The notes under the pieces are model-generated. The model saw only the letters and a program-made list of their open reading frames with translations. It made no database searches and was not told where the DNA came from. This document shows, in pieces, positions 1,890 through 3,675 of a stretch of 24,517 nt of DNA (the first letter of the stretch is position 1; every line of letters begins with the position of its first letter). Made by a program: the position numbers and the translations under genes. This DNA comes from a virus, in the IMG/VR virus record IMGVR_UViG_3300026488_000049, positions 1-24,517 of that record; one strand, written 5' to 3'.

Positions 1890-2102
1890 ATGGCAAAACT
1901 TGTCTTCAATAGAGCTAAAATGCTCGAATTAGGTAATGGGAGTATCAAAGAATTTTGTGAAATATATAAAATCAAAAGAACTAATCTTTATAGAATAGAA
2001 AATACATCTCGAAAAACAAAAGGCACATATGCTCAAGAGATAACAAATAGATTAATTTCTATGGATTGTGCTAAATGGAAAAATATTGAGGATATTGCTT
2101 AA
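1890..2102 (+). CDS. Small DNA-binding protein at the Cro position
   Basis: A 70-residue protein that starts at ATG 1890 after AAAGG. Residues about 18-40 (SIKEFCEIYKIKRTNLYRIE) look like a compact helix-turn-helix, and the protein is basic. It is the first rightward gene, divergent from the repressor, which is the usual place of Cro. Its stop codon directly abuts the ATG of the antirepressor, so the two are probably co-translated. The Cro-like role rests on position and the short HTH-like segment; I cannot assign it to a named family. Confidence 0.7.
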   Translation: MAKLVFNRAKMLELGNGSIKEFCEIYKIKRTNLYRIENTSRKTKGTYAQEITNRLISMDCAKWKNIEDIA

Positions 2103-2819
2103 ATGAAAAGAAATGCGTTAGTTGAAAAGCTAGGAGATTCACAGACTACCACAAATAGCCTGCAAGTTAATCGCAAAGGATTAAAATTGAAACAAGAGAT
2201 TATAGCAGTTAATTTAACTGAAATCAATGGTATACAAGTTAATGCAGTAAATGCAAGAGAGATACATACATATTTAGATGTAAAAACACAATTCAGCACT
2301 TGGATACAAAGAGCAATAGAAAAATATGATTTTATCGAGAATAACGATTATTCAATTTTGAATATTGATAATCCAAACGGAGGCAGAGATATTATTGATT
2401 ACTTCGTGACTATTGATATGTCAAAAGAATTATGTATGCTAGAAAACAATCCAAAAGGTAAAGAGACTAGAAAATATTTCATCTCTAAAGAAAAACAATC
2501 ACATAAAGTCTTATCAGTTCAAGAACAAATAGCATTAATCGCACAAGGTCATCATGAAGTAGATAATCGCATAACAGTTTTAGAAAAAACGAAACGATTA
2601 GAAAACTGGCAAGAAAGAGCATTAACAGATGCAAAAAATAAGAAAGTTTATGAAATTGCACAAGGTAACAAAGAACTAGCAACAACACTTCATAGAAAAG
2701 TATGGTCAATCTTTAAAAAGAATTTCCACCTACCAAGATACAACGAACTACCAGCAATTAGATATGAAGATGGAGTGGCTTACATCAAAAACTTATCTCT
2801 AGTAGATTTAGTAGCCTAA
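2103..2819 (+). CDS. ant: Antirepressor, AntA domain plus ORF6C domain
   Basis: The protein has 238 residues. An AntA/AntB-type domain lies at about 49-127 (REIHTYLDVKTQFSTWIQRA, then YFVTIDMSKELCML and the GKETRKYF ending). A short coiled-coil stretch at about 138-165 is followed by an ORF6C-type C-terminal domain at about 165-234 (LHRKVWSIFKKNF ... RYNELPAIRYEDGVAYI). Proteins of this architecture are phage antirepressors that counter CI-like repressors. The ATG follows the preceding stop without a gap; GAGGA about 11 nt upstream may serve as ribosome site. Because the repressor lacks an evident self-cleavage site, this protein may be the main induction route; that is inference. Confidence 0.88.
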   Translation: MKRNALVEKLGDSQTTTNSLQVNRKGLKLKQEIIAVNLTEINGIQVNAVNAREIHTYLDVKTQFSTWIQRAIEKYDFIENNDYSILNIDNPNGGRDIIDYFVTIDMSKELCMLENNPKGKETRKYFISKEKQSHKVLSVQEQIALIAQGHHEVDNRITVLEKTKRLENWQERALTDAKNKKVYEIAQGNKELATTLHRKVWSIFKKNFHLPRYNELPAIRYEDGVAYIKNLSLVDLVA

Positions 2820-2827
2820 CCCCTCAT

Positions 2828-2861
2828 AGTTCCTACCCTCTACATGTAGAGCATAGGAATT
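2828..2861. repeat. Hairpin capped by CTCTACATGTAGAG palindrome
   Basis: Arms AGTTCCTA (2828-2835) and TAGGAATT (2854-2861) pair over 8 positions with one G-T. They hold the perfect 14-nt palindrome CTCTACATGTAGAG at 2838-2851. There is no T-run after it, so it is not a standard terminator. Related palindromes occur at 8179-8191 and 9188-9203. Confidence 0.7.
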
Positions 2862-2899
2862 ATTGAGCGGTTATTCATCGCAAACAAGGGGAAATCCTT

Positions 2900-2915
2900 T
2901 GACTAACGTTAGTCA
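2900..2915. repeat. Perfect 16-bp palindrome
   Basis: TGACTAACGTTAGTCA is exactly self-complementary, and the flanks CTTT/AAAG extend it imperfectly. Such symmetry with no loop fits a dimeric protein-binding site at least as well as an RNA hairpin. It sits 80 nt downstream of the antirepressor stop. Confidence 0.6.
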
Positions 2916-3232
2916 TAAAGTACCACACTTAACTACGGTAAGAGTGTGTAGTGGCATGGGTTAGCAAGTACCATAACTTGTTATAGACGAAGAACTTTTT
3001 TATAAAGCCATATTATGAAGTCGTGTCCACACCACGAGTATGGTTTTTAGAAAAGTTTTAAAAAGCAAACACTAAGACCGCCTAACAATGGCAAAAGTTG
3101 ACGATGCGTTAAGCAATTCAATCTGGTGTTTGTTTTAAGAGTTTTTAAAATGAGTTGATGAAAATTAGAAAGACACAGATAGCACGAACTATCTGCAATA
3201 AAACTTGAGAAAGTTTAGGAGAACATTATAGC

Positions 3233-3361
3233 ATGAAAATTATAAAACAGCAAAAACCAAAATCACGGATACGAGTTAAATACAAGATAAACGACAGAAC
3301 AAATGATGAAACGAAACCAGCATCTTGTATGGGTGCTTATGCATGGGAGAATGAAGAATAA
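3233..3361 (+). CDS. 42-residue basic micro-protein
   Basis: ATG 3233 follows AGGAG (3217-3220 region) at about 11 nt. The peptide begins MKIIKQQKPKSRIRVKYKIN, so the N-terminal half is strongly basic; the C-terminal half is acidic and contains CMGAYAWENEE. Its TAA overlaps the ATG of the next gene by one base (TAATG), which suggests translational coupling. It is the first of four micro-genes ahead of the recE-like gene. Function unknown. Confidence 0.6.
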   Translation: MKIIKQQKPKSRIRVKYKINDRTNDETKPASCMGAYAWENEE

Positions 3362-3549: not shown

Positions 3550-3675
3550 ATGCTTAACAATATATTTGAAAATCCTTTTGTAATGATTGGATTAAGTATT
3601 GCACTTTACACGCTAGTTGCCATAGCAGTTGGTATTTATAAAAATAATAAAAGAGATTGGGGAGAAAATGAGTAA
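3550..3675 (+). CDS. 41-residue single-helix membrane peptide
   Basis: ATG 3550 follows GGAGAAATAAG. A hydrophobic segment at about residues 10-30 (FVMIGLSIALYTLVAIAVGI) is followed by a basic-polar tail. The 3' end overlaps the start of the recE-like gene at 3668 by 8 bases in another frame, so it belongs to the same operon. Function unknown. In lambda the comparable spot next to the red genes holds host-nuclease inhibitor and kil genes, but no similarity is visible. Confidence 0.6.
   Translation: MLNNIFENPFVMIGLSIALYTLVAIAVGIYKNNKRDWGENE

Follow-up and report, generated by a model that had tools for sequence, protein, structure and literature searches.

A conserved, covarying hairpin opens an intercistronic structured stretch in the early region of a temperate phage

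The 24.5-kb virus record analysed here (referred to in full as the window) comes from a temperate tailed phage and carries, between its antirepressor gene and a micro-gene, a stretch of 416 nt from stop to start (2817-3232) that opens on a hairpin named P1. This hairpin exists and shows covariation; a bulged U is always retained, a G.U pair in most cases, and its place is between genes on the coding strand. P1 is probably a real control element. For the stretch as a whole we favour, at roughly an even chance, an intercistronic structured RNA in which P1 would be a hairpin for processing or protein binding, with the remainder acting as a leader for the micro-gene and the RecE/RecT operon. A stretch beside a phage antirepressor that is blank to gene callers thus carries information.

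In the rightward early region, a 70-aa ORF is followed by the antirepressor gene, the non-coding stretch, several micro-genes, a RecE-like and a RecT-like gene. The antirepressor was identified by Pfam (PF08346, E 2.5e-24; PF10552, E 1.8e-9) and PHROG 5817 (anti-repressor Ant, E 3.1e-39), while neither the 70-aa ORF nor the 42-aa micro-gene gave a Pfam or PHROG match. The exonuclease VIII (RecE)-like gene begins at 3668, and the gene after it, from this position and its likeness to the family, is presumably RecT-like. Genes resembling this RecT-like one are located in metagenome-assembled genomes of Sulfurimonas and Sulfurovum, which makes a Sulfurimonas-like bacterium the probable host. A promoter-like TAAACA-18-TATAAT lies at 1822-1851, in a count not above chance expectation. 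The features are as follows.

1890-2102, plus strand: 70-aa ORF occupying the Cro position and opening the rightward early operon (ORF list)
2103-2819, plus strand: antirepressor gene with AntA and ORF6C domains (Pfam, PHROG)
2817-2873, plus strand: P1 hairpin, conserved motif (fold, model match, covariation)
2874-2985, plus strand: middle segment, weak or alternative structure, with hairpin GACTAACGTTAGTC at 2901-2914
2990-3060, plus strand: P4a, long helix holding nested stems (z -5.9 for 2986-3061)
3062-3136, plus strand: P4b, 11-bp closing stem and inner hairpins (z -3.3 for 3060-3140)
3176-3195, plus strand: P5, 7-bp hairpin with the six-base loop CACGAA (family pattern NNNGAN)
3201-3216, plus strand: P6, hairpin AAACTT-GAGA-AAGTTT (sequence; part of 3141-3232, modest z -2.2)
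3233-3361, plus strand: 42-aa micro-gene 3' of the RNA (ORF list; AGGAG 11 nt upstream)

Folding and coding content of the stretch

A first-pass annotation of this DNA had described a structured stretch of about 400 nt at 2820-3220, lacking a supported gene. Consistently, no ORF of at least 40 aa was found within 2820-3232, no hidden coding was supported in the three forward frames and no tRNA was found in the window. The start was shifted to 2817 so as to include the antirepressor stop codon UAA, with which the P1 hairpin begins and which forms part of its stem. On the plus strand, 2820-3232 folds at -113.7 kcal/mol (z -6.83) and beats all 100 shuffles, the comparison proposed with the original claim; the minus strand of the same stretch gave z -4.2, and 14 tiles from the same phage ranged from z +0.2 to -2.8. 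When folded by part, P1 (2817-2874) stood out with z -7.5, and all of the element minus P1 still reached z -4.5. The stretch therefore folds as an RNA overall, but 2875-2985 is not convincingly structured (z -1.1, 27 of 200 shuffles as good). This segment, no better than shuffles, would suit chance folding of AT-rich intergenic DNA; given the overall z-score and the strong covariation of P1, for which it is already contradicted, we give chance folding next to no weight.

Every stem named in that first description is present in the sequence. Positions 3004-3012 (AAAGCCATA) pair with 3039-3047 (TATGGTTTT) over 9 bp with one G-U, enclosing TCGTG (3021-3025) and CACGA (3033-3037), and 3062-3072 (AAAGCAAACAC) pair with 3126-3136 (GTGTTTGTTTT) over 11 bp, again with one G-U. 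In P6, AAACTT (3201-3206) and AAGTTT (3211-3216) flank the GAGA loop and the hairpin abuts the ribosome-binding site AGGAG (3217-3221). The inner stems at 3004-3136 are predictions from folding energy, no alignable homologue having been found among relatives; the P4a region has a weak similarity to locus L003 (6 of 300 shuffles as good), and no homologue of the middle segment was found. P5 lies 37 nt before the micro-gene and was compared with its counterparts by position, a MAFFT alignment not having been achieved; the window as a whole has five hairpins of this type, counting both strands.

The RNA had not been recognised at first sight, and indeed no Rfam 15 family reaches its cut-off here. 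At relaxed thresholds only weak matches appeared, all below cut-off (eukaryotic miRNA, U4 and CRISPR-repeat models), and P1 in eight other loci gave no Rfam 15 match either. DNA similarity searches in phages, plasmids and 200 Sulfurimonas-family genomes returned nothing or short chance-level matches. The antirepressor used as bait in viral contigs gave no match and RecE only distant ones, and no viral contig matched a DNA pattern built for the 3' module.

The P1 hairpin, its covariation and its spread

P1 follows the pattern UAA, 1-4 nt, CUCAUAG, a variable stem, (C/U)UUAUUGAG, 1-4 nt, UUA. The lower stem joins UAA (usually the stop codon that ends the upstream ORF) to UUA, and CUCA to UGAG; after a single bulged U, UAG pairs with UUA, the third pair being G.U. 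The window copy, the only one there, matches the P1 model with 35.7 bits.

Copies were collected in several ways. Pattern scans of 2.9 million viral contigs gave L067, L068, L074, L077 and L094, pattern matches lacking the inner stem being treated as chance. Folding and reading the gaps upstream of RecE/RecT genes in relatives revealed the 5' hairpin common to L007 and L009, and a micro-gene profile run over 228 genomes of the Sulfurimonas family added L165. In the same 228 genomes, the P1 model found strong copies in genomes that yielded no long element: G489 has several, G348 two and G132 one. A second model, run on 298 genomes of the phylum, found further ones, among them pairs in G014 and G303 separated by 1.6-1.9 kb. 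Most of the first-round copies were picked by a pattern demanding UAA and UUA.

Covariation, the check proposed for the whole structure, was assessed on alignments of P1 and is strong there. In 9 sequences aligned by hand and padded with N, which leans towards structure, 98.8% of cells were paired and both sides had changed in 8 of 18 pairs. Double changes were seen in 26 cells, against 6.8 +/- 2.3 in shuffles, and slid controls reached at most 51%. With 20 rows aligned to the model, 97.7% of cells over the 18 pairs were paired, with 61 double-change cells against 14.5 +/- 3.6 in shuffles; this alignment is fitted to the model and also leans towards structure, and two of its rows, from L074 and L165, are reverse-strand echoes, but neither the shuffled nor the slid controls come close. 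The G.U pair occupies one fixed position in 17 of the 20 rows.

P1 recurs, sense-oriented, between genes in Campylobacterota prophages and in phage structural operons. The copies of one genome differ in their stems, which argues for a constrained structure and not a copied repeat. Among the 27 tabulated copies, 20 follow a same-strand ORF ending at most 46 nt away, and 11 open exactly on the upstream stop codon (UAA, UAG or UGA). A Shine-Dalgarno sequence and start codon within 60 nt were found on the same strand for 16 of 27 and on the opposite strand for 1. This strand preference, together with the favoured G.U pair, argues for a function as RNA. Adjoining proteins include endolysins (PHROGs 435 and 894) and PHROG 846, which we take by eye to be a Mu-type gene; the 402-aa ORF before P1 in L067 has no family match and is, by eye, presumably major capsid protein-like.

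The same observations bear on the view that the element works at the DNA level, for instance as an end recognised by a transposase or as a hairpin at an origin. Ends of the IS200/IS605 type carry a stem with a bulged T, which the P1 stem resembles, and the minus strand of the stretch also folds well; set against the strong strand preference relative to genes, the fixed G.U and the different stems of copies within one genome, a DNA role appears highly improbable.

Further P1-like hairpins were also noted. In L194 (G035:C1:721077) one, a weaker match (E 2e-4), sits on a stop codon 37 nt before a 57-aa protein that has no family match and that we take by eye to be inovirus major coat protein-like. 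In L191 and L192 (G145:C5:43236 and G257:C21:138702), where AAG replaces GAG, the hairpins precede a DEAD-box RNA helicase-like gene in a probably chromosomal location, with what by eye is presumably a uppP/bacA-type gene on the other side; they perhaps represent a cellular use of the motif.

Antirepressor loci elsewhere in Campylobacterota (L021-L050) have structured gaps of different kinds. The candidate L030, picked by folding energy, lies on the opposite side of its antirepressor and is unrelated. No P1 was found in the Nitratiruptor phages NrS-2 and NrS-3; in NrS-3, a sequenced vent phage, a 325-nt gap downstream of an antirepressor gene pair (L167 4881-5206) holds two strong hairpins, different from those described here.

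Long elements and the proposed role

Four loci (L074, L009, L165 and L007) display the same order: P1 on a stop codon, a long stretch, P5 and a micro-gene, here of the type MKVYRKKYGIK. Their stop-to-start lengths are 387, 443, 722 and 1217 nt, respectively, and a hexaloop hairpin (NNNGAN) closes each element, 26-28 nt ahead of the start of its micro-gene. L007 and L165 are 96% identical over 118 nt, with unlike flanking regions, and 97% over 63 nt; L007 and L009 share 77% over 142 aligned columns and 85% over 48, and L007 and L074 75% over about 100. With P1 excluded, pairs among these four loci still outscored shuffles, of which 0 to 12 in 300 did as well. The window has in common with them the order and both end hairpins, so that any further kinship with this family would be inferential: the middle of its RNA has no similarity to any of the four long elements, and its micro-gene has no demonstrable kinship to theirs and no convincing relatives elsewhere. 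The L007 element holds an extra gene with its own ribosome-binding site; the middle therefore tolerates insertions.

Several sequences in or near such regions were recorded in their own right. Inside the long L007 element, from a Sulfurimonas phage or prophage, a 5S rRNA-like sequence lies on the opposite strand (about 3193-3308, minus strand; L161 2295-2410, plus strand; 47 bits for an Rfam cut-off of 38, E 3e-7), followed by a Shine-Dalgarno sequence and a small hydrophobic ORF, and could be a 5S-mimicking leader. Highly repetitive proteins are encoded between the micro-gene/RNA region and the recombination genes in L074 (reverse strand, 1512-2300, xxFRGAxF type) and L002 (3146-4090, KVGEWLEVGKWL type). 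Upstream of RecE, L001 and L002 have in common the non-coding motif ATTGTCGCTAAATCGGAAGCCC...GTGGCTCAC, possibly another structured element.

Short ATG frames at 75-122 (L074, reverse strand) and 77-166 (L007) from P1 share MKNEVRV with mostly synonymous differences and are possible leader peptides. These frames, and the VRVC of a 33-codon frame opening with TTG in the window (2863-2964), are what a partly coding stretch with incidental structure would have in its favour. However, both ATG codons are devoid of a Shine-Dalgarno sequence, the window stretch has no supported ORF, and L009 and L165 show no such peptide, leaving this explanation extremely improbable.

Upstream genes also differ among the loci. 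P1 opens on the antirepressor stop codon in the window and in L074, as would be expected if the antirepressor were controlled by a retroregulator of the lambda sib kind or by an antisense RNA like c4 of phages P1/P7. In L007, L009 and L165, however, the upstream gene is a DUF2303 gene, a 67-aa ORF and a 202-aa ORF, respectively. In addition, c4-like antisense pairing with the antirepressor translation start was rejected, since 14 of 100 shuffles paired at least as well, and c4 found no Rfam match in the window. Such control of the antirepressor is thus very unlikely.

The region has promoter-like sites in numbers that do not exceed those of shuffled sequence. An intrinsic terminator at the element end would be a G+C-rich hairpin with a T run behind it on the transcribed strand, but neither P1 nor P5 has such a run on the plus strand. 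The sole plus-strand terminator candidate is the inner hairpin 3021-3037, P5 being terminator-like on the minus strand only. For these reasons, the stretch most likely belongs to the mRNA of the early operon. Three roles had been offered for it initially: a regulatory RNA, an RNA with a particle role, or a structured leader for the micro-genes. The last fits best, as the same 5' hairpin opens a long element in four loci that ends 26-28 nt before a micro-gene start, whereas a discrete GOLLD/ROOL-like or particle RNA finds no promoter above background, no 3' terminator, no nearby tRNA and a threefold range of lengths.

A discrete, trans-acting large phage RNA, GOLLD/ROOL-like or regulatory, might nevertheless be excised from the early transcript between P1 and P5 and accumulate alone. 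That a phage genome has structure over several hundred bases, that four relatives have conserved ends, and that 118 nt are kept between L007 and L165 in unlike surroundings would agree with this. Its own promoter and terminator are however missing, lengths range from 387 to 1217 nt, the window and its relatives differ in the middle, no Rfam family matches, and P1 stands alone at many other places. We consider it unlikely. P1 and the element could also form an antitermination signal comparable to lambda nut or HK022 put, by which polymerase would read through to the recombination genes, and the location after the first early regulators and ahead of the recombination operon would be suitable. 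This is quite unlikely, as P1 also occurs in structural, endolysin and Mu-type regions, in several copies per genome, and no boxA-like or put-like element came to light in an examination of limited detail.

Returning to the leader reading, the structured RNA would lie within the rightward early transcript, from the antirepressor stop codon to the ribosome-binding site of the micro-gene, ahead of RecE/RecT. Since an invariant bulged lower stem precedes many unrelated genes, a shared factor is suggested to recognise P1. We infer that this could be a host factor, an RNase III-like nuclease or another RNA-binding protein, which would cut or protect the mRNA at P1. Expression of the antirepressor cistron would thereby be uncoupled from that of the micro-gene and recombination operon. 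A ribosome terminating on the paired stop codon would unfold P1. The other 350 nt may act in cis as a leader setting stability and translation of the micro-gene and of the operon behind it. Most copies elsewhere lie 12-56 nt before the next gene while 360 nt intervene in the window, and P1 may therefore be unconnected with the rest of the window RNA.

The invariant P1 core is found in different phage types and is rare elsewhere in these genomes, pointing to a shared host RNA-binding protein or nuclease exploited by phages. More broadly, and tentatively, P1 would be a motif for one host factor that segments mRNA at stop codons in unrelated Campylobacterota phages (siphovirus-like, Mu-type, probably filamentous), with the P1-P5 elements forming a new class of phage RNA cassette travelling with the micro-gene. 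P1 offers a conserved, testable mRNA element for phages of this phylum, which comprises Sulfurimonas, Campylobacter and Helicobacter and had none in Rfam. Since the stop codon is inside the stem, one can now test directly whether the end of translation and the processing of the mRNA are linked.

Comparison with known systems

GOLLD and ROOL are large structured RNAs of unknown function encoded by phages and prophages, often close to tRNA genes (PMC12286853). The window element is likewise a large structured phage RNA, but it is shorter, ends at a gene start, has no tRNA island and has a non-conserved middle. GOLLD and ROOL are discrete RNAs forming homo-oligomeric complexes; their Rfam covariance models found no match in the window or its relatives. 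The c4 antisense RNA (RF01695, listed in PMC2864571) is also a structured RNA tied to a phage antirepressor gene; the window RNA, in contrast, lies downstream of the antirepressor.

Translational operators of T4 resemble P1 as mRNA hairpins some tens of bases before a start codon. They are read by a protein, as is only proposed for P1, which conserves its lower stem and not its loop. P1 precedes many unrelated genes and is therefore not, unlike T4 operators, the operator of one gene product.

The closest functional parallels are lambda sib and the intercistronic RNase III sites of T7, hairpins on the sense strand that span about two helical turns and lie between phage genes. P1, likewise on the sense strand, lies between co-oriented genes, where one ends and ahead of the next, and comes in several copies per genome. 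By this analogy, and because the invariant stem suggests a shared factor, P1 is proposed as a processing or protection point. It differs by its invariant bulged-U lower stem, often containing the stop codon, and by its presence in unrelated phage types of another phylum; its cleavage is a prediction. A search of the open literature found no description of the motif. Intercistronic phage hairpins and structured leaders are already known kinds, while the P1 motif, its stop-codon base and its spread appear, as far as can be tested, to be new.
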